Positions 3,880-23,945 of a DNA stretch of 30,091 nt are shown here, piece by piece. The stretch is from a virus. The translations under genes and the position numbers were made by a program. Each line of letters opens with the position of its first letter. Position 1 is the first letter of the stretch. Location: positions 1-30,091 of IMG/VR virus record IMGVR_UViG_3300045425_000019. One strand, 5' to 3'. The notes below the pieces were generated by a model, which was given only the letters and a program-made list of their open reading frames with translations, was not told the DNA's origin and did not search any database.

Positions 3880-4590
3880 ATGAGAAAACAGAAAGAGGTG
3901 CGTAATCCTAGTTTCAATAGTGGTAATAAACTTAAACTGACTATTGATGATTTGTTAGTTGTAAATTCAATGACTGAAAACCAAAGTGATTTCTTGTCAT
4001 CTTACAGAGATCATACAGTACATATTCTCAGAGGGAGTGCCGGGGTAGGGAAGACATTCCTAGCCATTTACAGAGCGTTAGAAGATGTACTAGATAAGGG
4101 TACTCCTTACAACAAACTAATCATCACAAGAGCACCTGTTGAGGTTGGGAAGGGTATTGGAGCATTGCCCGGTGATCTAAGTGAAAAGGGTAGTGTATAC
4201 GAACTGCCATACTATGGTATATGTGATGGGTTGTTCAACAAGAATGGAGCATATGGAAGGTTGAAAGAGCAGGGTGTGATTGAGTTTATGCTCACATCCT
4301 TCACACGAGGGTTGACATTCGACAACACTATTTGTGTAGTAGATGAATATCAGAGCTTGACATACCATGAGTTATACTCTATAATGACTCGAATTGGTGA
4401 CAAAAGTAAGATACTTTTCTGTGGTGATACAAAACAGAGTGATTTAAGAAGTACAGTAGGTGTTACCAAGTTTGATACTATTATCAGTAGAATGACAGAC
4501 ACGCATGTCACTACATTCACTAGTGATGATATTGTGAGAAGTGATATAGTTAGAGAGTTTATTATAAATGACGAAAAATGGAATGATTAA
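3880..4590 (+). CDS. phoH: PhoH-like ATPase
   Basis: A 236-residue P-loop ATPase of the PhoH family. The Walker A box GSAGVGKT is at 52-59, followed by the family motif IITRAPVEVGKGIGALPGD (about 81-99). Walker B is ICVVDEYQ (D155-E156) and the sensor region LFCGDTKQSDLR is at about 179-190. In bacteria PhoH proteins are linked to RNA metabolism and helicase-type activity; in marine phages phoH is a common marker gene whose role is unresolved. It lacks any extra RNA-binding domain, so it is the short form. GGAT upstream of ATG 3880 gives a modest ribosome site. Its stop overlaps the next start (TAATG). Confidence 0.94.
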   Translation: MRKQKEVRNPSFNSGNKLKLTIDDLLVVNSMTENQSDFLSSYRDHTVHILRGSAGVGKTFLAIYRALEDVLDKGTPYNKLIITRAPVEVGKGIGALPGDLSEKGSVYELPYYGICDGLFNKNGAYGRLKEQGVIEFMLTSFTRGLTFDNTICVVDEYQSLTYHELYSIMTRIGDKSKILFCGDTKQSDLRSTVGVTKFDTIISRMTDTHVTTFTSDDIVRSDIVREFIINDEKWND

Positions 4591-5714
4591 TGGGAAAGAC
4601 ATTTGAAGAGTTGAATGGTTTGGTAGTTGATTGGGCAGAAGATAGGAACATCATTGGCGGGAGTACTGTGAGAGATCAGTATATTAAGATACTGACCCTA
4701 ACTATGAAAGAATTAAAAAACATCTCAATGGATCACAAAATGAAAAAGTATGAACTGACAGATACGTCAAAAGTTATGCCGACAGGCGAAACGGTGTATA
4801 GAATCAGAGCATTACGAGATTTCGACACAATCCATAAACCAGTGCAAGCAGGTGACTTGGGAGGTTGGGTACAGTCTGAAGCGAACTTATCTCATGAAGG
4901 TAATTGTTGGTTATTTGATGAGGCAACTGGTTATCAAGATTCACATCGCAGTGGCGACTCTGTGGGTTATGGCAACAGTCGTCAGTTGGAAAACAGCAGG
5001 CAGTACGACAACAGTCAGCAGTTTGGATGCAGTGTGCAATCAGGCATCAGCCACCAGTACGGCAACAGCCACCAGTTTGGCTGGAGTCGGCAGTTTGGTT
5101 ACAGCAGGCAGTACGACAATAGCCGCCAATATGGCGACAGCCGTCAATATGGCTGGAGTAGGCAGTATGGCTGCAGCCTTCAATATGGCTGGAGTAGGCA
5201 GTATGGCAACAGTCAGCAATACGAAAATAGCCAACAGTACGGTGTCAGTCGTCAGTATGGCAAAAGCCAGCAATTAGGAAACAGTCGTCAATATGACAAC
5301 AGCATTCAGTATGACAATAGCGAGCAGTTTGGCGACAGCAGGCAGTACGACAATAGCCGCCAATATGGCTGCAGCCGTCAATATGGCGAAAGCCAGCAAT
5401 CAGGAAACAGTCGACAGTACGGCAACAGCAGGCAGTTTGACAAAAGTTGGCAGTATGACAACAGCGAACAGTTTGATTACAGTTGGCAGTATGACAACAG
5501 CCAGCAATATGGTCACAGCAGGCAGAATGGGAACAGCGAGCAGTTTGGCGACAGCAGGCAGTACGATAACAGTTGGCAGTACGGTTACAGCCGTCAGTAT
5601 GGGAACAGCAGGCAGTTTGGCAAAAGCGAGCAGTTTGGCAAAAGCGAGCAGTTTGGCGACAGCGAGCAGTTTGGCGACAGCGAACAGTTTGGTCACAGTT
5701 GGCAGTGTGACTAA
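4590..5714 (+). CDS. hexapeptide-repeat protein with Ser-x-Gln-Tyr/Phe-Gly array (374 aa)
   Basis: Three parts are visible. Residues 1-45 (FEELNGLVVDWAEDRNIIGG...) look like the first helix of a MazG-like pyrophosphohydrolase, without the EExxE metal motif. Residues about 51-116 (KKYELTD... YRIRALRDF... AGDLGGWVQSEANLSHEGNCWLFD) match the head of a known phage/bacterial family that is followed by left-handed beta-helix repeats of the type [D/N]AxVYG. Residues 117-374 are 43 back-to-back hexapeptides, here of the type [N/D]S[R/Q/E]Q[Y/F][G/D]. An internal ATG at 4740 would produce only parts two and three. The gene overlaps phoH by TAATG. Its role is unknown; a beta-helix or a disordered low-complexity domain are both possible. 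Codon use in the array is richer in G+C than in neighbouring genes. Confidence 0.82.
   Translation: MGKTFEELNGLVVDWAEDRNIIGGSTVRDQYIKILTLTMKELKNISMDHKMKKYELTDTSKVMPTGETVYRIRALRDFDTIHKPVQAGDLGGWVQSEANLSHEGNCWLFDEATGYQDSHRSGDSVGYGNSRQLENSRQYDNSQQFGCSVQSGISHQYGNSHQFGWSRQFGYSRQYDNSRQYGDSRQYGWSRQYGCSLQYGWSRQYGNSQQYENSQQYGVSRQYGKSQQLGNSRQYDNSIQYDNSEQFGDSRQYDNSRQYGCSRQYGESQQSGNSRQYGNSRQFDKSWQYDNSEQFDYSWQYDNSQQYGHSRQNGNSEQFGDSRQYDNSWQYGYSRQYGNSRQFGKSEQFGKSEQFGDSEQFGDSEQFGHSWQCD
4938..5711 (+). repeat. 43-unit 18-bp coding tandem array
   Basis: Forty-three consecutive 18-base units with no gaps encode the hexapeptide domain. Counting by position: Ser at position 2 in 43 of 43 units, Gln at position 4 in 41 of 43, Tyr or Phe at position 5 in 36 of 43, and Gly at position 6 in 30 of 43 (Asp or Glu in the rest). 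Positions 1 and 3 vary, with Asn (18) and Arg (19) the commonest. The units at 5622-5639 and 5640-5657 are identical at DNA level and those at 5658-5693 nearly so, a sign of recent slippage or unequal recombination. Confidence 0.95.
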
Positions 5715-5741: not shown

Positions 5742-6002
5742 ATGAAGATTAAAGGTAAAGATTTTAGACAGGTGTACACAGCAGTATCTAAAGTGATGGA
5801 ATTGATTGCTGAAGTTGAGTTTAAGATCGATGATATTATTGAAACGGATAGTCGGTCAACATTGAGTGAAGAGGATGTTAACCGCTTGGATGTATTGATC
5901 AACTGTCTTACTGACTTGAACTTGATGTACGCTGCACTTAACCATACTCATAACCAATTGAGTGATTATATTCTGGAAGAATATCATGACAACCACAACT
6001 AG
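5742..6002 (+). CDS. small acidic helical hypothetical protein (86 aa)
   Basis: The ATG at 5742 has a good ribosome site (AGGAG about 8 bases upstream). The protein MKIKGKDFRQVYTAV... is acidic and probably helical, with two long helices (about 8-32 and 43-80) and a His/Asn-rich end (HTHNQLSDYILEEYHDNHN). Heptad-like spacing (VMELIAEVEFKIDDII) suggests a coiled coil or helical bundle. I recognise no family. It lies directly before nrdB, whose start is inside its last codons (17-base overlap), so it is likely co-translated with the reductase small subunit. A regulatory or accessory role is possible but is only position-based. Confidence 0.75.
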   Translation: MKIKGKDFRQVYTAVSKVMELIAEVEFKIDDIIETDSRSTLSEEDVNRLDVLINCLTDLNLMYAALNHTHNQLSDYILEEYHDNHN

Positions 6003-6566
6003 AATGCAACAGTTTACACCAGTGTTACGCTGCGAGTATCCAGTTATTGAAGAGTTTACTAAACAGCAACTAAAGGTATTCTGGACAGCTGAAGAGATTG
6101 CAGTGGAGAATGACATTCATGATGTATTGACCAACTTCACCCCTGCTGAAAGGCATGGGGTATTCACCACACTAAAACTATTCTCACTGTATGAGATGAA
6201 AGCTGGCAGTGAATATTGGACTGGTAGGTTCATGAAAGATTTTCAACGGCATGAGTTTCAAGCCATGGGGTCTGTGTTTGGTATGTTTGAATTGGCAGTA
6301 CACAAACCATTCTACAATAAGATCAATGAGTTACTTAATGCTACTAATGATAGTTTCTATACTGATTATGTAGATACTCCAGTACTTAAATCACGTATGG
6401 AGTTTATTGATAAATACATTGACCATGAAGATACTTTAGTATCCTTAGGTGTGTTTAGTATGGTTGAAGGAGTTATCCTATATTCTTCTTTTGCATTCCT
6501 TAAACACTTCCAATCATTAGGTAAGAATAAACTACTTAACATTGTTAGAGGTATCAATTTTTCCGT
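5986..6566 (+). CDS. nrdB: ribonucleotide reductase small subunit NrdB, exon 1
   Basis: First coding exon of the class I R2 subunit, which holds the metal/radical cofactor used to reduce ribonucleotides. The region FWTAEEI...LTNFTPAERHGVF...LFSLYEMKAGSEYW...MFELAVHKPFYNKINE is typical of phage R2 proteins and holds metal ligands (Glu and His) and a Tyr at H-x3-Y. I start at ATG 5986, which has GGAAG upstream. The frame then reads GINFSV and goes into five non-R2 residues and a TGA inside the intron. R2 proteins continue GINFSVRDENLHA, and this continuation is found at 7036. Joining 5986-6566 to 7036-7420 gives 966 bases, exactly 322 codons (321 residues). Confidence 0.93.
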
Positions 6567-7035
6567 TAGTAGAATGGCGGCGTGAGTCAGTGATGATCCA
6601 TGAAAACTCAGTTAACTCAGGGAACACCCAGACCGGGCAATCCTGACGTTTTACAAGAAACACTTATAATATATGAAAGAGCATCCAATATCTAAATATC
6701 TAGTTAGTCTTGATGGTAGGATAGTTAACCCTAAAACGGGGTATGAATTAAAACCTACTCTATCCCCAACTGGTTATCTTAAGATAGGAAATTATGTGTG
6801 CTCTAGTGGTACAGTACAGAATCTTTACTAAGTCAAACAAATATGAGTGTGTCTGTAGGACAGCAACGACTATCGAAACCATTGGATGAAAGGGAGTAGA
6901 GTACACCATAAGTATATGATGGTGGAAACGCTGAGGGACTCAATTAGAGTCTATGATATAGTCTGGTCTGCATAGGAATATGCAGAAGTTCATAAGAGAA
7001 CTAGGTACATCTTACGAATGTACTTGAACATAACG
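6567..7035 (+). ncRNA. group I self-splicing intron in nrdB
   Basis: The intron interrupts the conserved GINFSV|RDENIHA junction. The core is recognisable. P4 pairs 6617-6622 with 6641-6646, around the Q-like segment GGCAATCCTGACG. P5 is CCC 6627-6629 with GGG 6635-6637. P7 is GACTAT 6868-6873 with ATAGTC 6958-6963. P1 pairs exon CCGT (6563-6566) with GCGG (6577-6580), giving the expected U-G at the 5' splice site. The last base is G (7035). Peripheral hairpins are at 6937-6951, 6968-6985 and 7005-7023. The P7 words resemble those of T4 td-type (IA2-like) introns. Splicing restores Val (GT|A), Arg and DENIHAQAGA. Exact ends could shift by a base. Confidence 0.9.
6673..6831 (+). pseudogene. 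remnant of an intron-encoded HNH/NUMOD4-type homing endonuclease (52 aa)
   Basis: An ORF of 52 codons lies in a peripheral loop of the nrdB intron, between the Q and R core segments. Its sequence YLVSLDGRIVNPKTGYELKP, then SPTGYLKIG, is like the N-terminal half of NUMOD4/HNH homing endonucleases (pattern YxVSxxGRVxNxxxGxxLKPxxxxxGYLxV). It stops before the expected histidine-containing HRLVA segment and the nuclease core. A TATAAT at 6665-6670 just upstream of its start could be a relic promoter. The reading is that a homing enzyme was lost by deletion and the intron persists as a passive element or is mobilised in trans. Confidence 0.6.
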
Positions 7036-7420
7036 AAGGGACGAAAACATACATGCACAAGCTGGAGCATATGTATTCAAACAATTGATCAAAGAACGTA
7101 AAATGGGCTTGCCTAAGAATGTAAAAGATGCTATAATAGATGCATCTCAACATTTACTGGAACATGAGTTAGAAATTATTAACATGACCTTCTCCCAAGG
7201 AGAGATTGATGGCATCACAGCTACACAAATGTCACATTTTGTAAGTGAAAGGATAGGATATTGTTTAGCACAATTAGGATTAGAAAAAGAGGTTGCGCCA
7301 ACATCAGATATATCTAAATGGTTCTACAAAGGAATTAATAACATACAAGTTAATGACTTCTTTACCGGACAAGGAAGAGAGTACAGCCGCGATTGGAATG
7401 AATCTAAATTTACTTGGTAA
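7036..7420 (+). CDS. nrdB: ribonucleotide reductase small subunit NrdB, exon 2
   Basis: Second exon of the R2 protein. In the spliced frame it begins V-R-D-E-N-I-H-A-Q-A-G-A-Y-V-F-K-Q, matching the conserved RDENLHAxxG metal-ligand region. It continues through HELEIINMTF and ATQMSHFVSERIGYCL (further Glu/His ligands), and ends in a C-terminal tail FFTGQGREYSRDWNESKFTW. The acidic-aromatic end is the usual part that docks to NrdA. The open frame seems to start at TTG 7085 if the intron is ignored, but that is only an artefact of the split. The stop at 7420 is five bases before the nrdA start. Confidence 0.92.
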
Positions 7421-7425
7421 GGATA

Positions 7426-10095
7426 ATGAATAAATACGAAAGAATGCGGGTTGAGCGTAAAGAAGGTATTGCTAATGGTACTATTCCTGACTGGATGATT
7501 GGTGCAGGGTATCAATTATTCACTGATAAGTACTTGTGGGCTGATAGTATCAAAGAACAGTATCAAGAGATTGCACGTACAGCAGCACATTGGTGCATGA
7601 ACACCAAGTGGGAAGAGGTAGCTGAGAAGAAATTCTTCAACCTTATGTGGAATGGTTGGCTGTCTTTGAGTACCCCAGTGTTAGCTAATATGGGAAGTGG
7701 TCGTGGGCTACCAGTTAGTTGCTCTGGGCAGTATATTGAAGATAGCATTGATGGGTTTTACTCAGCACGGCGCGAGAGTGCTATTCTTACTAAGCATGGT
7801 TTTGGTACATCTGGTGACTTTAGTGCTATTAGGTCTAGAGGGAGTAAGATCAGAGTCGGTGGAGTAGCTTCAGGTAGTGTACCTGTATTCACTGGCTTTG
7901 TTCGTGATATGTCTGAAGTAGCACAGGGTTTGTCCCGCAGGGGAGCATTTGCTGGTTACTTACCAATTATGCATGGTGACTTTGATGAACTAGCCGATTT
8001 ACTCCATGCTACACCAGCTGGCTTGAATGTAGGGTGGATTATCCCACAGAGTTTCATAGATGACTTAGATAACAATGTACCAGAGGCTATACGACGTTAC
8101 CAGAAAGTCTTGAAGGTTAAGATGATTACTGGAAAAGGGTATTTCTTCTTTATTGATAAAGCTAATGAACTACGACCTATTGATTATATTGATAATGACT
8201 TAGATATCAAAGCAAGTAATCTTTGTGTAGCACCAGAAACATTGGTACTTACTGACGCTGGTCATGTAGAGATAAGCAGTCTAGCAGATCAAGAGGTTGC
8301 TGTATGGAATGGAACTGAATGGTCTAAAGTAATAGTTAGACATACTGGAGTTGATCAAGAGTTGGTTAAAGTTGTAACAGATTCTGGACAAGACTTGGAA
8401 TGTACTCCACAACATAAATTCTATGTAGTTACAGACTACAGTGGAAATACAGTTGAAAAAAGAGCGCATGAATTACAGAAAGGTGATAAACTTATTAGAC
8501 TGTCAACACCCGTTATTGAAGGGAATGAAGTGCTATCTCATCCCTACGCCAATGGATTCTACACAGGTGATGGTTGTTCTTTTAAAGGAGATTCTATTAT
8601 CTACCTGTACAACAGTAAACAAGATTTACTAGATGAATTCAAAGATGTAGCAAGTACTGTTAATGTACAATCTATCCAAAATAGAACAGTTATTAGGGCT
8701 AATGGGTTGCAACCTAAATTCTTTATTCCTGACAGTAACTACACTATAGAATCTCGTGTAGAGTGGTTAGCAGGTCTACTTGATTCGGATGGATGTCTGT
8801 TAACTAATGGTGACGCACAGACATTGCAGGTTGCGTCTACTGAGAAGGAGTTTCTTAAAGAAGTGCAGTTGATGTTACAAACACTAGGTGTACAGAGTAA
8901 GGTTAAACATGCACGTGACTCTGGCTTGTATAATCTTCCTAAGAATGATGGTAGTAATACCCTTGGTTTGTATGCATGTAAAGATGTATACCGTATTCTT
9001 ATAAGTGGTAATGGAGTTAATACATTGTTGTCTTTGGGTTTGAATACACGTAGACTAAAGATAACAAATCATGTTCCTAACAGGAACTGTGAAAGATTTG
9101 TAACAGTGCAAGAGGTTGTGTATACTCGTAGGCGTGATGATACATACTGCTTTACAGAGCCTAAGAAACATTTAGGAGTGTTTAATGGTCTACTTACCGG
9201 ACAATGTAGTGAGATATCCTTACATAGTAGTAAAGAGTACACATATACATGTGTTCTATCTAGTATGAATCTGGCTAAATACGATGAATGGCGTAACACT
9301 GACGCAGCATACTGGGCTACAATCTTCTTAGATTGTGTGGTGTCTGAATTCTTATACTTAGCAGAGAAGATACCGGGTTTAGAGAAGGCTGTGGCATTCA
9401 CAGAGAAGGGTAGAGCATTGGGTTTGGGAGTCTGTGGTTTACACACACTGTTTCAAAAGAGAGGGATACCATTTGAGAGTTTAGACGCACAATTTCTTAA
9501 TGATGAAATATTCAGAACGCTTGGACAAGAAAGTAACAGAGCATCATACGACATGGCTGAGCAGTTAGGGATTCCAGAGTGGTGTCAATCTAGTGGTCGT
9601 CGTAACACACACACAATGGCTATTGCTCCTACAAAGAGTACAGCATTGATCATGGGAGGTGTTAGTGAAGGGATTAACCCTGATCAGGGTATGACATACA
9701 CCCAGACTACAGCAGCAGGTGAAGTAGAAAGGATTAACCCTGTCCTATTGGACATTATGAAAAGTAGAGGTGTCTATGATGATAGACATGTTAGCGATAT
9801 TGTTAGTGCTTTTGGTTCTGTACAGGCTGTAGACTGGTTATCAGCTGAGGAGAAGATGGTATTTAAGACTGCCTTCGAGATAGACCAAGCGGTTGTATTG
9901 CGGTTAGCATCACAGAGACAGAAGTATATTGACCAGCTACAAAGTATCAACTTATTCTTCTCAGCTGAAGCTGGCGAAGAGTATATATCTAAGATACATA
10001 AAATAGCATTCAAAGATCCCAACATTGGTTCTTTATATTATTGTTATAGTAAGGCTGGTGTTAGTGCCAGTGATGGATGTGTGGTTTGCCAATAA
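7426..10095 (+). CDS. nrdA: ribonucleotide reductase large subunit NrdA with in-frame intein
   Basis: The ORF encodes 889 residues; removal of the 327-residue intein leaves 562. Class I R1 landmarks are STPVLANMGSGRGLPVSCSGQ (redox Cys99), ILTKHGFGTSGDF, then the finger-loop N-L-C-S-E-I (restored by protein splicing), VCGLHTLFQKRGIPFES, MAIAPTKSTALIMG, YY in the LYYCYSKAG radical-transfer segment, and the C-terminal GCVVCQ thioredoxin-type Cys pair. It is much shorter than T4 NrdA and lacks an N-terminal ATP cone, so dATP feedback at that site is probably absent. ATG 7426 is preferred (AAGG three to six bases upstream) over the in-frame GTG at 7414, which lies within nrdB. It pairs with the nrdB product. 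Confidence 0.94.
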   Translation: MNKYERMRVERKEGIANGTIPDWMIGAGYQLFTDKYLWADSIKEQYQEIARTAAHWCMNTKWEEVAEKKFFNLMWNGWLSLSTPVLANMGSGRGLPVSCSGQYIEDSIDGFYSARRESAILTKHGFGTSGDFSAIRSRGSKIRVGGVASGSVPVFTGFVRDMSEVAQGLSRRGAFAGYLPIMHGDFDELADLLHATPAGLNVGWIIPQSFIDDLDNNVPEAIRRYQKVLKVKMITGKGYFFFIDKANELRPIDYIDNDLDIKASNLCVAPETLVLTDAGHVEISSLADQEVAVWNGTEWSKVIVRHTGVDQELVKVVTDSGQDLECTPQHKFYVVTDYSGNTVEKRAHELQKGDKLIRLSTPVIEGNEVLSHPYANGFYTGDGCSFKGDSIIYLYNSKQDLLDEFKDVASTVNVQSIQNRTVIRANGLQPKFFIPDSNYTIESRVEWLAGLLDSDGCLLTNGDAQTLQVASTEKEFLKEVQLMLQTLGVQSKVKHARDSGLYNLPKNDGSNTLGLYACKDVYRILISGNGVNTLLSLGLNTRRLKITNHVPNRNCERFVTVQEVVYTRRRDDTYCFTEPKKHLGVFNGLLTGQCSEISLHSSKEYTYTCVLSSMNLAKYDEWRNTDAAYWATIFLDCVVSEFLYLAEKIPGLEKAVAFTEKGRALGLGVCGLHTLFQKRGIPFESLDAQFLNDEIFRTLGQESNRASYDMAEQLGIPEWCQSSGRRNTHTMAIAPTKSTALIMGGVSEGINPDQGMTYTQTTAAGEVERINPVLLDIMKSRGVYDDRHVSDIVSAFGSVQAVDWLSAEEKMVFKTAFEIDQAVVLRLASQRQKYIDQLQSINLFFSAEAGEEYISKIHKIAFKDPNIGSLYYCYSKAGVSASDGCVVCQ
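8224..9204 (+). mobile_element. NrdA intein with LAGLIDADG homing endonuclease (327 aa)
   Basis: The insertion splits the reductase sequence SNL|CSEI, the catalytic loop. It begins CVAPETLVLTDAGHVEI (block A, nucleophile Cys1). Block B is LECTPQHKFYV, with T61 and H64. The two endonuclease motifs are ANGFYTGDGC (109-118) and WLAGLLDSDG (181-190), each with an acidic residue. The end is TYCFTEPKKHLGVFNGLLTGQ, followed by Cys as the +1 residue. Blocks F and G are complete but the last two intein residues are Gly-Gln rather than the common His-Asn. The intein is in frame with no stops. It inserts at a site used by other NrdA inteins as I recall, consistent with homing to the most conserved codons. 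Confidence 0.92.
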
Positions 10096-11803: not shown

Positions 11804-14139
11804 CTCATTTTATTTTCTGCCCAAGCTAGCACCTGACCAGCAGTTTTCCCTTTTAATACCCTCTCATTGCTTCTAATGGCATCAGCAGATGCTATATCTT
11901 CTATTGGTGTGTTAGGATCTGCTTTAATGATCTTAGATGCAGTACCTACACCAGCGAAGTGAGCAAGATAAGTATTCCTGTCGTTAGCTTCAATTCCTTT
12001 ATTTTGTAGTATCTTCTGATTATCTTTAGTTAACCCTCCTAGTATTTTTACATGGAAATCTTGATCATGGATCTTGTTAAGAATCTCACCACTAGTTAAA
12101 CCCTCAGCTTCTTCTGGTGCAAACTTCTTGACACTATCAACCCAAGTCTTTTTAGTGAATTGACCAAGACCAAAAGCACTGGTATCAGCATTCTTAGCTT
12201 TAGGATCACCAGCACTTTCAACTTTAATAATCTTATCTACTACTGAACTACTTGATTGATTACTTTTTTTTTCAGGTTCTTGTTTAGAATCCCCTTGTAT
12301 ACCAAATGCACCACCATGCATACTATTGATAATATTAGCAACAGCATTAGTACCTTGTCCACTAAGAACACTAATACTATTAATACTCTTATTATATCGT
12401 GAAGCATAGTCTGTATTCAATTTCAGTTGCAGCTGTCTATTAGATGGTACCTCGTAACGAACACCACCTCCCGGTAGGGAAGACACTGACACCTTGTCAA
12501 ATCCAACACCACTTTCTTCAATAGTCTTATTAAGGCGTGTTCCTAGATTAACAATATAGTTATTAACGTTATCAACCATCTCTAATACTAAATCATCACC
12601 AGCCCCTTGTATGTTAGCTCTAGCACTAGGGTTAGCTAAGTAGTCATTCAAACTATCCATGTATTTGAAATGATCTTGTTGTGATAACCTACCGTTCTTC
12701 TGAGCAGTATCTATGTTACCAAGAATAGTCTTGAAGTCTGCATTCTTACCTCCTAGTAGTATATCTATAGAGGCTGTAGCAGCGTCACTCTTTCCCGGTG
12801 TCAGATCTTGACTGTTAATCAGGCTTTTAGTCTGGTGACCACTAGCCAATGAATCATCCAACAAGCCTGCTATGGCTGTCATAAGACGCTGTGATGCAGA
12901 TGCATTCCTAAGTACCATCTTCTGTACTAGAGCATCAGGCATACTTTTAAGAGTGGTTATAGCAGCAGGGTTAACAACTTGGTTAACTTCCAACTGCCCT
13001 ATATTCCTTTCATACTCTTCTTGATTCTTAACAATACTCAATCGTGTAGCTTGTGTTTTACTATCTCTAATACCTTTCATTAAAGATTCTGTGTGAGCAT
13101 CAAATCTCTTAAGAATACGCTCCCCTTCAGGGAAGCGAAACATCCCGTTCTCTTCTAAGAATCCAATCAATTGATCTCTTTGTAGTGGTACTATATCTTG
13201 TTCTAACCTATTGATTTGCTCTTCAACAGGGAGACCACTCTCAACTACACTAATGAAGTCTTGGGACACACTAGCTATGTAGCCATTGTAAGTGCTATTC
13301 CCTTTGTTACTAGCCCATTGTCTAGCTTGTTGTGAACTCGTAATCTGTTCCACTTTATCACCAGTAACCACTTCTTCAACCAAACTCTGTTCATATAATC
13401 GCTTGTTCAACTCCTCTTGAACTTCCATCTGATAATCAGGATCTGTCTGTAATCTAAACCTATCCACATTAGGAATATTATGTTTAGCTACCGCTAAATT
13501 CAATTGCTTCAATCCTTCAGCACGTGCCTTAGCTTGTACATCTTCTACTGGCTTAGGGTCTCTAAGAGAGGATACACCAGATAACTCAAGAATACGATTG
13601 CTCTCTTGAATGATAGCATCTGCTGCACCCGGATTAGCATTAACATGCTGCCTAGTGATAGCCATAAGCCTGAGCTTAAGATCAGACGGAGTCATTAACC
13701 CTTGGTCAACAGCCCTCTTGTAGGCTTGTGCTTGTTTACGGAAACTCTCTGGGTTCTCAGATGTACTCTCTACTCTACTTAGTGCTTCTGATACATTAGC
13801 ATCACTACTCTTAAGAGCGTCTACTAAGTCTGGGTTCTGTTGCAATAGAGCAAAGTCATTGATAGCACTGTTAATATCTTTATTAACTTGTCCACGAATA
13901 TACCCTTCTTGAATCTTTAATCCATCATTAACTAGATCTGTAGCAGCGTCTGCGAATGAGTCAAGCACCCCACTCTTTGTTTCCATAGCAGATACTCTAG
14001 TCGCTGTAGCAGCATTGGTAAGTTGAGCTGCCACTGCAAACCCTTGACCAGCAACAGCTCCACTTTGGTCTACAACACCAGCTCGTACAGGTTCTTGTTC
14101 ACTGTTTGTAACTCTTACTGAAGCATCAAATTGTGCCAT
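11800..14139 (-). CDS. internal virion protein with C-terminal lytic transglycosylase domain (779 aa)
   Basis: Residues about 632-779 form an SLT-type lytic transglycosylase domain: catalytic E641 in IIKVESAGDP, the typical SAFGLGQFTKKTW motif, and NTYLAHFAGVGTA. The rest is a long helical body with coiled-coil stretches (for example QAQAYKRAVDQG, VNRLEQDIVPL types), as expected for a T7 gp15/gp16-like ejection protein. It would be injected into the host wall and open peptidoglycan so DNA can enter. In T7 the transglycosylase lies at the N-terminus of gp16; here it sits at the C-terminus of the smaller core protein. A run of nine A (sense strand) lies just before the domain (residues 623-626). 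Confidence 0.88.
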   Translation of the reverse strand: MAQFDASVRVTNSEQEPVRAGVVDQSGAVAGQGFAVAAQLTNAATATRVSAMETKSGVLDSFADAATDLVNDGLKIQEGYIRGQVNKDINSAINDFALLQQNPDLVDALKSSDANVSEALSRVESTSENPESFRKQAQAYKRAVDQGLMTPSDLKLRLMAITRQHVNANPGAADAIIQESNRILELSGVSSLRDPKPVEDVQAKARAEGLKQLNLAVAKHNIPNVDRFRLQTDPDYQMEVQEELNKRLYEQSLVEEVVTGDKVEQITSSQQARQWASNKGNSTYNGYIASVSQDFISVVESGLPVEEQINRLEQDIVPLQRDQLIGFLEENGMFRFPEGERILKRFDAHTESLMKGIRDSKTQATRLSIVKNQEEYERNIGQLEVNQVVNPAAITTLKSMPDALVQKMVLRNASASQRLMTAIAGLLDDSLASGHQTKSLINSQDLTPGKSDAATASIDILLGGKNADFKTILGNIDTAQKNGRLSQQDHFKYMDSLNDYLANPSARANIQGAGDDLVLEMVDNVNNYIVNLGTRLNKTIEESGVGFDKVSVSSLPGGGVRYEVPSNRQLQLKLNTDYASRYNKSINSISVLSGQGTNAVANIINSMHGGAFGIQGDSKQEPEKKSNQSSSSVVDKIIKVESAGDPKAKNADTSAFGLGQFTKKTWVDSVKKFAPEEAEGLTSGEILNKIHDQDFHVKILGGLTKDNQKILQNKGIEANDRNTYLAHFAGVGTASKIIKADPNTPIEDIASADAIRSNERVLKGKTAGQVLAWAENKMR

Positions 14140-19126: not shown

Positions 19127-19780
19127 TTATTTATTCCCGAATATTGAGTCTAAAGCTGAAGTTGTTTTACCTGCACCAAAGACTGACCCAAACACACCAC
19201 TACCACCTATGCCACCAGCACCACCAGTTACACCAGCAGTAACAGCACTCTCTACTAACCCACCAATCTGTCCAATAGATTTTAGACCAGACAGAGATTT
19301 GTTGAGTTTAGCCTGCACAATCTGTGATTGTCCACCAAGAAGAGCACTCTCCCCCTGTAACTTAGCAACTCTACCTTGTGAGTCTAGTGCTTTAGATTGT
19401 ATTTCAGCATCTTTATCTTGTAATCTATTAAATATATTAGCAACTCCTAATGTATTCTGGAAACTAGAAGTCATAGCTCCTACAGCCCCTGTGACAGCCG
19501 CACTATTAGATTGAATACCTGAGGCTACAGCAGAGGATATTAAACCAGCCCTGCGAATCCTAGCGCTTCTGATACTCTCTATACGATCTAATTGTCTCTG
19601 TTGTCCAAGAGTAGCTCTACCAAGAGCGAATTGTTCTTTAGCTAACCCTGTTTGAATCTCAGTCTCTTTATTAGCTTCTACAGCTAACGCCTGTTGTTGC
19701 TCAGCAATCCTCTTCTGTTTCTTGGCAGCTTTCTTTTTCTTCTTTCCACCAATAATACCAGTAACAGCTCCTATTACCAT
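19127..19780 (-). CDS. internal virion protein, T7 gp14-like (217 aa)
   Basis: The product starts with a glycine-rich stretch (MVIGAVTGIIGG), a Lys-rich patch, then a long coiled coil (about 20-60, QKRIAEQQQALAVEANKETEIQ...), a helical middle with IRRAGLISSAVASGIQSNSAAVTGAVGAM, and a Gly-rich end (VTAGVTGGAGGIGGSGVFGSVFGAG). This domain order is typical of gp14-like core proteins in T7-type podoviruses, which enter the outer membrane on infection. AAGGAAAG is an adequate ribosome site. The gene follows the long leader region described at 19781-20202 and heads the run of three core-protein genes. Confidence 0.85.
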   Translation of the reverse strand: MVIGAVTGIIGGKKKKKAAKKQKRIAEQQQALAVEANKETEIQTGLAKEQFALGRATLGQQRQLDRIESIRSARIRRAGLISSAVASGIQSNSAAVTGAVGAMTSSFQNTLGVANIFNRLQDKDAEIQSKALDSQGRVAKLQGESALLGGQSQIVQAKLNKSLSGLKSIGQIGGLVESAVTAGVTGGAGGIGGSGVFGSVFGAGKTTSALDSIFGNK

Positions 19781-19808
19781 TGACTTTCCTTAATAATTAT
19801 GATATAAT
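19780..19808 (+). promoter_or_regulatory. near-consensus sigma70-type promoter on + strand, antisense to gp14-like leader
   Basis: TTGACT (19780-19785), a 17-base spacer, and a perfect TATAAT (19803-19808) point rightward, away from the gp14-like gene. Transcription would start near 19815 and run antisense to the leader of the core genes. A caution: the -35 box overlaps the complement of the gp14-like start codon and ribosome site, which constrains its sequence for other reasons. The -10 is not constrained in that way. Confidence 0.55.
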
Positions 19809-19814
19809 GCAAAC

Positions 19815-20190
19815 TAGTTTGAACTTTAATTAACAATTTAGTTCAAATACTTTATGTTCGTCGGGGCAACTACGGCAGGGACATGATGTTGAAGGATACT
19901 ACTGTGGGTGATGTACAAAGTATCCAGCGTGGGCTGACCTAGAGCGCGTACATTTACAAGTAATAAATGAGAGAGGCGGTGAGGGACATGTATTGCACAT
20001 GTGAAATCGAAGTCCTTATTTATTGTTGTAAGATAGTCTAGGGTTACATAGAAACTTCAAGGTTGCGCACTGTTAGTGTGTTTGTTACAAAGCCTAGGAG
20101 ATATGAGCTGCGTATGCGCTTAACTGCGTAGGCGCGAGCTTTATATTTCTTAAGGTTGATATATATTAATAGCAGTGCCTGAGCACTGCA
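19815..20190 (+). ncRNA. candidate structured non-coding RNA (about 375 nt)
   Basis: No ORF of note lies here. The + strand can fold into many helices. They are TTTGAACT 19818-19825 with AGTTCAAA 19840-19847; 19894-19900 with 19919-19925 (7 bp); 19954-19968 with 20018-20031 (14 bp, one bulge, two G-U); 19982-19987 with 20012-20017; 20037-20042 with 20093-20098; 20065-20071 with 20075-20081 (7 bp, two G-U); 20101-20112 with 20133-20146 (bulged); and 20172-20178 with 20183-20189. The G-U pairs exist only in + strand RNA, which agrees with the promoter at 19780. I recognise no known RNA family. Ends are guesses from the promoter and last hairpin. Confidence 0.45.
20172..20189. promoter_or_regulatory. 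perfect 7-bp GC-rich hairpin with 4-base loop
   Basis: GCAGTGC, loop CTGA, GCACTGC. On the + strand it would close the candidate RNA, but it is followed by an AU stretch without a U-tract. On the - strand it lies about 6 bases after the predicted start of transcription from 20202-20231 and could protect the 5' end of the core-gene mRNA. Confidence 0.6.
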
Positions 20191-20201
20191 TATAATAATA
20201 T

Positions 20202-20231
20202 ATTATAGTTTAAACAACCTATCTCCTTCAA
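20202..20231 (-). promoter_or_regulatory. possible sigma70-type promoter for the internal-core genes
   Basis: On the - strand, TTGAAG (20226-20231), an 18-base spacer, and TATAAT (20202-20207) point toward the gp14-like gene, with a start expected near 20195. It overlaps the 3' end of the gp13-like gene. It would give a leader of about 415 bases, all of it opposite the candidate + strand RNA. Confidence 0.45.
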
Positions 20232-20499
20232 TACTGATCCCAGTATACTTAAATCCAAATGCTTTAGCCCACTTACAGTTCTCATCTTCTACAGGGAGAC
20301 AGTAGATATTCTTAATACCGTTACTATGTAGATAATCTACCACTCCCTTCCATACCCTAAGACTCTTCTTCATTCTTGATACAGATAATGGTTTGTACAT
20401 TTCATTATGTACAAACACACCATTAATAAGATCCCTCTCATTCTCAATCGTTAAGAATATATCTTCATCTTGATATACAGCTGTCTCTTCCAAATACAT
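20203..20499 (-). CDS. gp13-like / GNAT-fold virion protein (98 aa)
   Basis: The protein has a short N-terminal part (LEETAVYQDEDIFLTIE) and a C-terminal half, LRVWKGVVDYLHSNGIKNIYCLPVEDENCKWAKAFGFKYTGISIEGDRLFKL. The latter has the layout of the last third of a GNAT acetyltransferase: helix, strand, NCKWAKAFGFKYTG (the motif B 'xxNxxAxxfYxklGF' position) and final strands. In T7-like phages a similar small protein (gp13) lies here and is needed for correct internal-core assembly. The acetyl-CoA pyrophosphate-binding loop is not evident, so catalysis is doubtful. AAGGA lies upstream of the ATG, inside the end of the preceding gene. Confidence 0.72.
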   Translation of the reverse strand: MYLEETAVYQDEDIFLTIENERDLINGVFVHNEMYKPLSVSRMKKSLRVWKGVVDYLHSNGIKNIYCLPVEDENCKWAKAFGFKYTGISIEGDRLFKL

Positions 20500-20511: not shown

Positions 20512-21309
20512 CTATCCAACTGGGTTAGCATATGTATCAATAGCCCACCCTAGTAATATACAATCTTCTCCACACCCTGCACTATACTTAATGGCTAGAC
20601 TTCGTCCACGTCCTCTAAGTTTATTCTTAGTAATAACAACAGTATCACCGTAATCAAAAGGTTGATTAACAGTAGTAGTTGCAGGAATCTTCTTAAGCAA
20701 TCTATAAGCTTCAAATGGCACTCCCCACTTACCTTGAGCTGTACTATTATTCCATTCCCACTGTGGTTGAATCTTACAGCTACTTTTATTAGCTAAAGTT
20801 CCTACTTTGTCCAAGAAATGTGTCTCAGTTCTTGTAAAGAATGTATGTAAGTATATACTCTGCTTCTTACGCATCATATCTTCTGTAAAATGGTAACCAG
20901 CAATGAGGTAGGCATTGTATGTTTTACCTACCCCATCAATACTTCTCCAATCTACAAAATTGTAATCATGATACTCAGACGCAAAGATATTAGTATCATA
21001 TGTAGTCAGATACTTGAAATTCTCTCTTCTTCTGTCAGTATGCCTCTTAACAGCCCGAGGTACAACATGAGTACCAGTGATGGTAGTATCGTTGTATGTA
21101 TTAACTGTATCTGCAACTACATAAAAGTCAGGGATTTGTATGTAATCCCTTATAAGAGGCCCTCCGTTATGTTGTAAATCATTGTAACTGAATGATCCTA
21201 GTGTCAAGTCCAACACCAACTCTCTATTATAACTATCATAATTCTCTATAATATTAAAGTCAGTGTCGTTCTGCTCGACATTACATAATGGTATAAATTT
21301 ATCTGTCAT
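20512..21309 (-). CDS. probable detached C-terminal part of gp12-like tail nozzle (265 aa)
   Basis: The start overlaps the stop of the nozzle gene (ATGA). The C-terminal 40 residues, ending NKLRGRGRSLAIKYSAGCGEDCILLGWAIDTYANPVG, match the ending normally found at the C-terminus of gp12-like nozzle proteins ('xxRGRGRxLxLxxxSxxGxDFxLLGWxVxxxxN'). In usual nozzles that segment is part of one polypeptide. Here it stands in its own gene, with 225 residues of mostly beta pattern before it (for example IQIPDFYVVADTV, HVVPRAVKRHTDRR, YNAYLIAGYHF). It may combine with the upstream product to complete the tail tip. No enzymatic motif is seen. Confidence 0.72.
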   Translation of the reverse strand: MTDKFIPLCNVEQNDTDFNIIENYDSYNRELVLDLTLGSFSYNDLQHNGGPLIRDYIQIPDFYVVADTVNTYNDTTITGTHVVPRAVKRHTDRRRENFKYLTTYDTNIFASEYHDYNFVDWRSIDGVGKTYNAYLIAGYHFTEDMMRKKQSIYLHTFFTRTETHFLDKVGTLANKSSCKIQPQWEWNNSTAQGKWGVPFEAYRLLKKIPATTTVNQPFDYGDTVVITKNKLRGRGRSLAIKYSAGCGEDCILLGWAIDTYANPVG

Positions 21310-23945
21310 AATACCCGTACAGCCTGCATTTTAAACTCCCCTGTTGAGCTATGAGCTGCCCATATGAACACCTCATCATTAATCTTCACAGCACTAGGAT
21401 TAGTCAAAAAACTACCAGCATCTACCGTTAATTTAGAAGTGCGTGCATTTATCTCAGGAACTGAGTAGTTATATGTTCTTACAGTCATGTCACCTGTACC
21501 AGTTATGTATGTATGTGCCAGAATTGAGCTAGTCATAACTATTGGTATGTTCGATCTGGAACTCCCACTGTTATCTGTTATAGTCGTCTCAATGAATTCA
21601 GACGCATCGTGACTAGAGATAATAGTGCCGTTAACTTCTAACACTCTCATCATAATTCTTGCTGGTGCCTCAAATACACTAAGTGCTGAGATAACAAATA
21701 CATTACTGCCTTGGTAGTTATCATACATATATAAAGTTGTGCTAGCAGCTTGGAATACTGGGTTGGATGTAACAAACTTACCAGTTTCATTGTATGACAC
21801 TGTGGTACCATCAGAAGATACTACCATTAATGTATCACTATTATCTGCTGTAACCATCAATGCTGTTGAATCTGTAACATTTTTTAGATACACTGCTGAT
21901 GCATACCCTGGTCTAACTATAGACCCTGGTGTTATGGTATCTCCAGATATATCCAAGACTAGCGCCGCTGCTTTATTGAACCCAGATGTATAGTTATACT
22001 GCATTATATATTTAGTAGCAGACATTCTTGATAGAGTTGGATAAATAACAGAGTATGGTTCAGTTATTATACTCTGTGTACTGCCTACGCTAAAAGATGT
22101 TCCACTCACTGTAATGATAACACCAGTGAATTTGTTAGGAGTGGCTAGGTGTATCAGTATTATCTTATTAGTGTCTACTAGGTTCATCACCCATCCTGAG
22201 AAGTCTGGGGCATTCGTTGTTGAGAAGATCGTGGTAGGTGTACCTACAGATATAGCCAACGTAGTTTGGTTAACAGTACATACTACACCTCTTACGCTAA
22301 AAGTTGCTGGATGTCTATATATTAAGAAGAATCTATTATCATCAATTCTTAGTACTGTTGGGTGTGTTCCACCAAGACTTGTAACAGATGTCTCACCCGG
22401 TGCAGTTACTGGTACCAAACCAGGGACATAATGTCCCTCAATAGGATCTCCCTCAACTCTTGTGCTAGGAGCATACAATAACCATCTAGCTTTATTGGCT
22501 GGTGCATCGTAAAACCCTCTTACATTACGCTTAAACACGTCAGGGTAAGAGTTATACATTCTCTGTATAGTAGACTCAGTTATATTATTAACATTGTATG
22601 TAGTTCCTCCTGCATCATTCTGAGGTGTTATAGAGTATATGCCACCCTCAGCCCAGTATATCAAAGTTCCACCAGCTTCAATTACGCTGTGTTTAGCAAG
22701 TAATCCAAAGTTGGAAACTTTACGTATTCTGTAGCTGGTTGCTCTAAATCCTTGGTCATCACTCGTGATAATCCACACACCATTAACTGCAAATACATAT
22801 AATCCAGCAGATGACGCGTGCAGCTTCAGTATCAATGAAGCATCTGGTATATTAATAATACCACCATCAGTATCAATAATATCATTGATCTCTATGTTAG
22901 TAGGGTCTGCTTCTGTGTAACACTTAACTAAATCTTCTTTGTTAGTAAACGTTTGTGAGAATAACACAGCTCCACTTAAGTTAGGTGATCTTATATCTCC
23001 AGTATTAATACTACTAAGAATACCAGAGTAGAACAATCTTCCTTGATGAGAAGCTATCGTTGTTATCCTACCTTGTTCAGCATCTGTTGGTAGTGTCAAC
23101 CCTGTTTTTGAGGACCTCCCTGCACCTCTGGAATATAGTGGGATTATATAATGCCCTCTAGCTTGTTGTCCTGTGTTGATAGATACTTTCTCGTACAAAC
23201 TCGGGTCATACTTGAATACATTAGGATCAGTAAGATCCTCTATTCTGCCAGAACTCCAATGATCACTATTAGATGGATATACACCTAGTGTAGAGAATGT
23301 GCAATCTATCGCATCAGTTCCACAAGTTGAAGTAATACCATCTGTCCACCCTTGGTTCCTAAGATTGTATTTGTGCGCATCACTTAATGTAACCGGCCTT
23401 ACGTCAACTGTAGTACCATCATCCACTCCCCATACATCCCTAACCATAATGGGTGCAGTTTCTGTAGTGATAGTATCTGTATTCTGATCATAACTAAACA
23501 GTACAGGATCATTACTACCATTAGATACCATTACCAAGTAATTATTAATAGTAGCAAATGACATAAGAGCGTCATTACGTGTGCCTATTACAACACCATT
23601 AGCTCCATTAAGTATAGTTGATGAAACAGCATCAGCATACAAATTTATAAAGAATAATTTACTACCTACCTGAACAACACCAATATCTATGTTAGGATTT
23701 CCATTAGGAGTTGACCAACGGTAGTGTTGTACTCTAGCAGCAGCTAAGATAACTTCAGTAAGACCGGTAGGCTGCATCAACCCACTCTGTTCCATATCCA
23801 ATCCTAGCCGCTTATCTCTAGTGCCATCACGACGTAGTACGAAGTTTGTCTCGTCTATTGACGCTCCAGCAGGGAAATTGATAGGTGAGGATTCAGTATG
23901 TAATCCTTTTACGAAATTCTGTACTTGTAAATCCCCACGTGCCAT
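21306..23945 (-). CDS. tail nozzle protein, T7 gp12-like, with added propeller-like domain (879 aa)
   Basis: The N-terminus VQNFVKGLHTESSPINFPAG, then DETNFVLRRDGTRDKRLGLD, is a hallmark of gp12-like tail tubular protein B. The core segment (about 322-490) continues the family pattern: LYVFAVNGVWIITS, VSNFGLLAKHSVIEAGGTLIYWAEGGIYSI, ITESTIQRMYNSYPDVFKRNVRGFYD. After about residue 512 there is a run of repeated beta-rich units with starts near 527, 584, 634, 682, 728, 800 and 849. These look like blades of a seven-bladed propeller. The usual nozzle C-terminus is missing here and appears in the next gene. The protein forms the tip of the short tail and contacts the host; the repeat domain is a candidate receptor- or sugar-binding module. 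Confidence 0.85.
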   Translation of the reverse strand: MARGDLQVQNFVKGLHTESSPINFPAGASIDETNFVLRRDGTRDKRLGLDMEQSGLMQPTGLTEVILAAARVQHYRWSTPNGNPNIDIGVVQVGSKLFFINLYADAVSSTILNGANGVVIGTRNDALMSFATINNYLVMVSNGSNDPVLFSYDQNTDTITTETAPIMVRDVWGVDDGTTVDVRPVTLSDAHKYNLRNQGWTDGITSTCGTDAIDCTFSTLGVYPSNSDHWSSGRIEDLTDPNVFKYDPSLYEKVSINTGQQARGHYIIPLYSRGAGRSSKTGLTLPTDAEQGRITTIASHQGRLFYSGILSSINTGDIRSPNLSGAVLFSQTFTNKEDLVKCYTEADPTNIEINDIIDTDGGIINIPDASLILKLHASSAGLYVFAVNGVWIITSDDQGFRATSYRIRKVSNFGLLAKHSVIEAGGTLIYWAEGGIYSITPQNDAGGTTYNVNNITESTIQRMYNSYPDVFKRNVRGFYDAPANKARWLLYAPSTRVEGDPIEGHYVPGLVPVTAPGETSVTSLGGTHPTVLRIDDNRFFLIYRHPATFSVRGVVCTVNQTTLAISVGTPTTIFSTTNAPDFSGWVMNLVDTNKIILIHLATPNKFTGVIITVSGTSFSVGSTQSIITEPYSVIYPTLSRMSATKYIMQYNYTSGFNKAAALVLDISGDTITPGSIVRPGYASAVYLKNVTDSTALMVTADNSDTLMVVSSDGTTVSYNETGKFVTSNPVFQAASTTLYMYDNYQGSNVFVISALSVFEAPARIMMRVLEVNGTIISSHDASEFIETTITDNSGSSRSNIPIVMTSSILAHTYITGTGDMTVRTYNYSVPEINARTSKLTVDAGSFLTNPSAVKINDEVFIWAAHSSTGEFKMQAVRVL

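Follow-up and report, generated by a model that had tools for sequence, protein, structure and literature searches.

A non-coding gap between two late genes

The window analyzed here, by which we mean the whole stretch of 30,091 nt (positions 1 to 30,091 of IMG/VR record IMGVR_UViG_3300045425_000019), comes from a Zobellviridae-like podophage, as judged by its tail protein. Two late-operon genes on the - strand, encoding proteins of 217 aa (19127-19780) and 98 aa (20203-20499), are separated by a gap of 422 nt (19781-20202) in which there is no ORF of 60 aa or more. A first-pass annotation, made from the letters alone, had called this the only long non-coding stretch; the one at 6586-7084, which interrupts nrdB, is longer (499 nt).

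The promoters that this annotation had placed on both strands around the gap were found again. On the + strand, a sigma70-type promoter with an extended -10 element (TTGACT-17-TATAAT with TG; 19780-19808) matches at 11 of 12 positions, and the + strand RNA is expected to start at about 19815. The opposing promoter-like site on the - strand (TTGAAG-18-TATAAT; 20231-20202) matches at 10 of 12 with a spacer of 18; it lies inside the AT-rich end of the 98-aa gene, is less convincing than the + strand promoter, and is given low weight here. These two sites are the best of 13 promoter matches in 2 kb, against a background in shuffled sequence of 6.1 matches on average (sd 3.0).

The nrdB gene (5962-7420, + strand) has its N-terminal part at 5962-6585 and its C-terminal part from about 7050; about 480 nt inside it resemble a broken HNH/NUMOD-type endonuclease, either an intron or an insertion, and Rfam called no intron at this interruption. 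The ribonucleotide reductase large subunit gene (7414-10095, + strand) carries an intein with Intein_splicing and LAGLIDADG_3 domains. At 20512-23945 (- strand), two overlapping ORFs, 21306-23945 and 20512-21309, share between them what in relatives is one tail appendage gene (phrog_8094); the former has about 390 extra residues at its end. Finally, a 374-aa protein (4590-5714, + strand) contains a long run of short NSRQYG-type repeats and has no Pfam match.

A folded + strand RNA related to RF02932

The + strand of the gap folds to -120.4 kcal/mol, compared to -97.7 kcal/mol for shuffled sequences (z -4.36; none of 100 shuffles as good), whereas the - strand gives z -1.32, with 10 of 100 shuffles as good. 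This bears out the preference for the + strand that had been proposed from G-U pairs, and the three helices named in that proposal all belong to the minimum-energy fold of the + strand or lie close to it.

The predicted RNA is a free-standing one and extends over 19815-20190 (+). It begins with a hairpin of the minimum-energy fold, UUUGAACUUU...AGUUCAAA (19817-19848), that was not seen in relatives. Next comes P1 (19852-19886; 8 pairs), with outer arms at 19852-19859 and 19879-19886, inner pairs GUCG/CGGC, and the motifs GUCGGG (19860-19865) and ACGGCAG (19872-19878). P2 (19894-19925) is a helix of 7 bp between GGAUACU (19894-19900) and AGUAUCC (19919-19925); its loop opens with ACUGUGGG (19901-19908) and continues with GAUGUAC (19910-19916), which can form 7 pairs with GUACAUU (19948-19954), a pseudoknot that encloses the short hairpin P3. 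The 3′ domain was not alignable to relatives over 19952-20031, where the helices of the first reading (about 19952-19969 with 20013-20031, plus an inner hairpin) come from the minimum-energy fold. It also holds a long hairpin at 20091-20156 (local fold z -2.9) and an inverted repeat, GCAGUGC-CUGA-GCACUGC (20172-20189), that could form the 3′ end; no clear U run follows this hairpin, and it was not called as a terminator.

At the gathering threshold, Rfam gave no match in this region. With permissive thresholds, RF02932 (Betaproteobacteria-1 RNA) matched 19850-19934 (+) with 30.0 bits (E 8.2e-4 in a 601-nt search), short of its curated cut-off of 49.4 bits; both the P1 (GUCGGG/ACGGCAG) and the P2 (CUGUGGG) features of the family are present. 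A search of viral contigs for GTCGGG-N-ACGGCAG-N-CTGTGGG returned at least 120 stretches. Among the matches listed, the gaps have tightly clustered lengths of 6-8 and 19-22, which is not expected of chance matches; the minority with other gap lengths look like chance. Many of the relatives listed score 70-102 bits with RF02932, and others, more like the window, score 34-39 bits.

Because the search pattern had been derived from the window, the window was kept out of a covariance model of 20 relatives. The sole match of this model in the window is 19842-19968 on the + strand (52.2 bits, E 1.2e-13), so that membership in a wider class, comprising RF02932 and its long-form relatives, is well supported in spite of the missed Rfam cut-off; we regard the window RNA as almost certainly a divergent member. 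The first-pass annotation had recognized no known RNA class, and on this point it must be amended: the RNA is a distant member of one that is known (30 bits, against 70-102 bits for relatives). Its central proposal, a selected and structured + strand RNA, here of about 350-375 nt, holds up well, since the model built from relatives matches that strand only.

Helix covariation is strong among the relatives. In 43 nonredundant sequences, 6.70 of the 7 outer pairs of P1 are formed on average, compared to 3.19 when arms are swapped between sequences; all Watson-Crick types occur at most positions, and P2 covaries likewise, with compensatory changes. In most relatives the P2 loop can pair with a segment about 20-34 nt past P2, although the excess is modest in these sequences (5.1 Watson-Crick pairs on average, 4.2 when swapped). 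The window has this feature too, with GAUGUAC/GUACAUU at the conserved offset.

The class is widespread in phages and nearly uncharacterized; a literature search found no paper naming RF02932 or Betaproteobacteria-1. No tRNA or tmRNA was called by ARAGORN in the window, and the window region had no blastn match among phages. Among 50,697 phage records, Acidovorax phage AP1 was the sole isolate found to carry the RNA, which starts there at 11856. When 257 billion bases of bacterial and archaeal genomes were scanned for the exact pattern, 27 matches came up, of which about half are credible from their pairing; blastn against plasmids with one class member found nothing. The class is mainly a phage RNA. 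Some chromosomal copies are truncated, being joined directly to unrelated sequence in Caballeronia/Paraburkholderia chromosomes (L140, L364), and Acidobacteria MAGs (Bryobacterales) hold a distinct, well-conserved subgroup with its own flanks (L131, L135, L139, L147).

An insertion in the late operon

In six related phages (Podoviridae ctOsX528, MEP401, MEP402, GX1, CVT22, and CRP-5), the counterparts of the genes flanking the RNA abut within a few bases. A profile of seven sequences yielded 80 relatives of the window phage for comparison of the locus; a pattern search found the core motif near the locus in none of the 80, and the covariance model found no RNA in 36 such locus stretches. Searches of viral contigs with the 217-aa and 879-aa proteins turned up no close relatives. 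Given that the flanking genes abut in the six phages, the RNA and its own, host-type promoter are an insertion between two late genes, directed opposite to them. The - strand site at 20202-20231 could restart transcription of the internal-core genes beyond it.

This bears on the purpose first suggested for the RNA, antisense control of the internal-core operon. In the window phage the RNA is indeed antisense to the late transcript, with promoters facing each other across the gap. However, the RNA is inserted here, the same junction is free of it in relatives of the window phage, and members of the class are located in a wide range of other contexts, where they often point the same way as the gene that follows; moreover, perfect antisense pairing does not account for a covarying structure. 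A cis-antisense regulator is therefore improbable as an explanation, and a local antisense effect, possible in the window phage alone, would be incidental.

Matched words in the 3′ domain of relatives

The RF02932 model ends after about 120 nt, and in the relatives conservation continues 3′ of this point; RF02932 describes only the 5′ part of a longer RNA. In class A, the RF02932-like members, a second pseudoknot covaries (GATAG/CTGTC, GTTAG/CTGAC, GCTAG/CTGGC). Many class A RNAs are preceded, 30-80 nt upstream, by a hairpin and then a T run (L009, L010, L012, L024, L054, and others), which may terminate an RNA encoded further upstream or belong to the expression unit of the class A RNA itself.

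The 3′ part of the relatives reads, in order, GGCUCC, a word that we call R1, a hairpin, CACC, and a second word, R2. Within one RNA, R1 is nearly equal to R2, and the word varies among phages. The two are about 51-69 nt apart in class A and 86-98 nt apart in a longer form, with a few spacings between. Of 46 nonredundant pairs, 38 have words that match at 6 or more of the 9 positions, and mean agreement is 6.8 of 9, compared to 3.6 with swapped words, in sequences that are related and so not phylogenetically independent. In the RNAs that precede a T7-like primase-helicase gene, both copies of the word change together, even among related phages. The differences that do occur run one way. Across the 38 best pairs, going from R1 to R2, positions 1-7 show 17 changes of G to A, 2 of C to T, and none in reverse; at position 0, which is in the conserved core, G is replaced by A in 28 pairs and by T in 2. 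Position 8 and those beyond vary freely.

A second regularity lies just past R2, where the next 70 nt rank on average at the 96th percentile for local AT content (36 loci), compared to the 64th for the 70 nt upstream of the RNA.

Some bacterial sRNAs have duplicated seeds, and one can envision a trans-acting phage sRNA of this kind, with R1 in a hairpin loop and R2 at a single-stranded 3′ end, both directed at a single transcript of the host or of a competitor. The presence in each RNA of two phage-specific words that are nearly identical would suit this explanation, as would the promoter of the window copy. A shared third partner, however, would give changes in both directions, A to G as well as G to A, whereas only G to A and rare C to T are found inside the word. 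The AT-rich tract would be left without explanation. Nor does a complement of the R word point to such a partner: none is consistent inside the RNA, and none stands out in the seven full or near-full phage contigs searched. We consider such an sRNA possible but doubtful. The one-way bias agrees better with R1, as RNA, pairing to the DNA strand that faces R2, where G·T pairs would allow it; structural constraint on the R1 loop could account for part of the bias, and sequence of a promoter or terminator for part of the AT tract.

A clear near-consensus sigma70 promoter is absent in most relatives and was seen only in the window and in the group upstream of the primase-helicase gene, where TTGACA/T-17/18-TATACT precedes the RNA in the same arrangement as in the window. 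In some relatives of the primase phages of L071, a different structured-looking, RNA-like sequence, AUAAACGAG...GCC...AUCC...GGGUNAGGUU, lies some 300 nt ahead of the primase-helicase gene (L160, L168-L174, L178, L182). It has no Rfam match, has a similar promoter ahead of it in L160, and may represent another RNA class occupying that slot.

Candidate words in the window

In the window, the word AAGGUUG occurs at 20059-20065 and again at 20152-20158 (+), and these are our tentative R1 and R2. Their spacing of 93 nt is within the range of the long form, and a direct repeat of this length and spacing arises in 14% of simulated sequences (P 0.14). The tentative R2 is inside a predicted stem. The AT-rich tract that follows it (20159-20228) has 73% AT, the 97th percentile of the window.

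We also considered that the window copy is recently acquired cargo, partly decayed, in which the function of R1 and R2 has been lost. The lack of significance of its repeat would agree with this, as would the existence of truncated chromosomal copies. A strong promoter, significant folding, and intact P1, P2, and pseudoknot speak against decay, and we think this unlikely to be the case. Because the words in the window are tentative, the mechanism of the window copy is taken from the relatives, by way of homology in the 5′ domain and this candidate repeat.

The window shows no switch of GC skew at its RNA. Many relatives do show one, which tracks gene orientation (mean percentile 0.78 vs 0.73). 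A skew minimum was rejected as proof of an origin, being confounded in this way, and skew was left out of the evidence since gene orientation also switches in the relatives.

Proposed mechanism

Many of the neighbors of the relatives' RNAs are replication or recombination genes, encoding DnaB-like helicase, primase-helicase, RecE-like exonuclease, Erf, and ParB-like proteins; several relatives adjoin genes without a known replication role. In Acidovorax phage AP1, the RNA is positioned after the helicase and primase genes. Together with the G-to-A bias and the AT-rich tract, these neighbors and the position in AP1 suggest that the 3′ edge of the RNA gene forms an R-loop. To extend what is seen in relatives, the folded RNA would present R1, the phage-specific word of its 3′ domain, and R1 would pair at the 3′ edge of the gene, where R2 lies, with the opposite strand of the DNA. 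We imagine that this pairing, beside the AT-rich tract, would hold the DNA open as an R-loop that might prime replication or open the DNA for it, much as for ColE1 RNA II and T4 oriF.

Matched words could also belong to a mobile RNA element, with R1 as the guide, R2 as the target site, and a partner protein maintaining the element. The insertion in the window would be consistent with mobility, and so would a patchy distribution (within one family, 4 of 251 genomes carry the RNA), integrase genes, of the tyrosine type, near three chromosomal copies, and the replacement of the RNA by the other RNA-like sequence at the primase locus in some relatives. Against this, there is one copy per record with a match (one bacterial genome has two), the neighboring gene is not consistent, a reverse transcriptase is absent from 19 records, and no empty site containing R2 was found; Burkholderia and Paraburkholderia chromosomes had RNA homologues and gave no clean empty site. 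Such an element seems rather unlikely. A template RNA of the template-jump (DRT2-like) or retron type was rejected, as RVT_1 is absent from 19 RNA-bearing records, many of which are fragments.

The R-loop is, in our view, the most likely single mechanism for the class, although still a tentative one. We would give roughly 40% to the combined reading, in which the window RNA is an inserted member of the class with its own promoter and the class acts through an R1/R2 R-loop, perhaps in replication. The broader suggestion, that folded RNAs across phages use a matched word to recognize the DNA downstream of their own genes and set up R-loop origins as an analogue of ColE1 RNA II, is offered tentatively as well.

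The 120-nt Betaproteobacteria-1 motif proves to be part of a longer, widespread RNA, mostly of uncultured phages. Words that match with one-way G-to-A differences, next to an AT-rich edge, lead to specific and testable predictions of RNA-DNA pairing; should the R-loop reading be true, the start of replication in these phages becomes directly testable.

Comparison with known systems

RF02932 and the window RNA share a core in which P1 (GUCGGG...ACGGCAG) precedes P2 (CUGUGGG). Its model, at about 120 nt, is without the extended 3′ domain and the R1/R2 words of the class relatives, and despite its name the hosts found here go beyond Betaproteobacteria.

GOLLD and ROOL are large pseudoknotted RNAs of phages and prophages, with function unknown (PMC12286853). 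They differ in sequence from the RNA described here, and the window has neither an Rfam match to them nor a tRNA; the likeness is that of phage-encoded, pseudoknotted RNAs.

For ColE1 RNA II, an rG stretch of the RNA must pair with a dC stretch of the template (PMC4412123; PMC5043065). The likeness is confined to how the two would work, with a folded transcript, an upstream promoter, and pairing of RNA with template near an origin. It is drawn from the sequence signatures of the relatives.

The T4 origins oriF and oriG offer a similar likeness in working, a promoter followed by an AT-rich element with an R-loop of the transcript; at oriF, the R-loop forms in an AT-rich unwinding element (PMC3016281). 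R-loop formation in T4 is independent of specific sequences (PMC3016281), whereas the RNA of the present class is conserved and folded.
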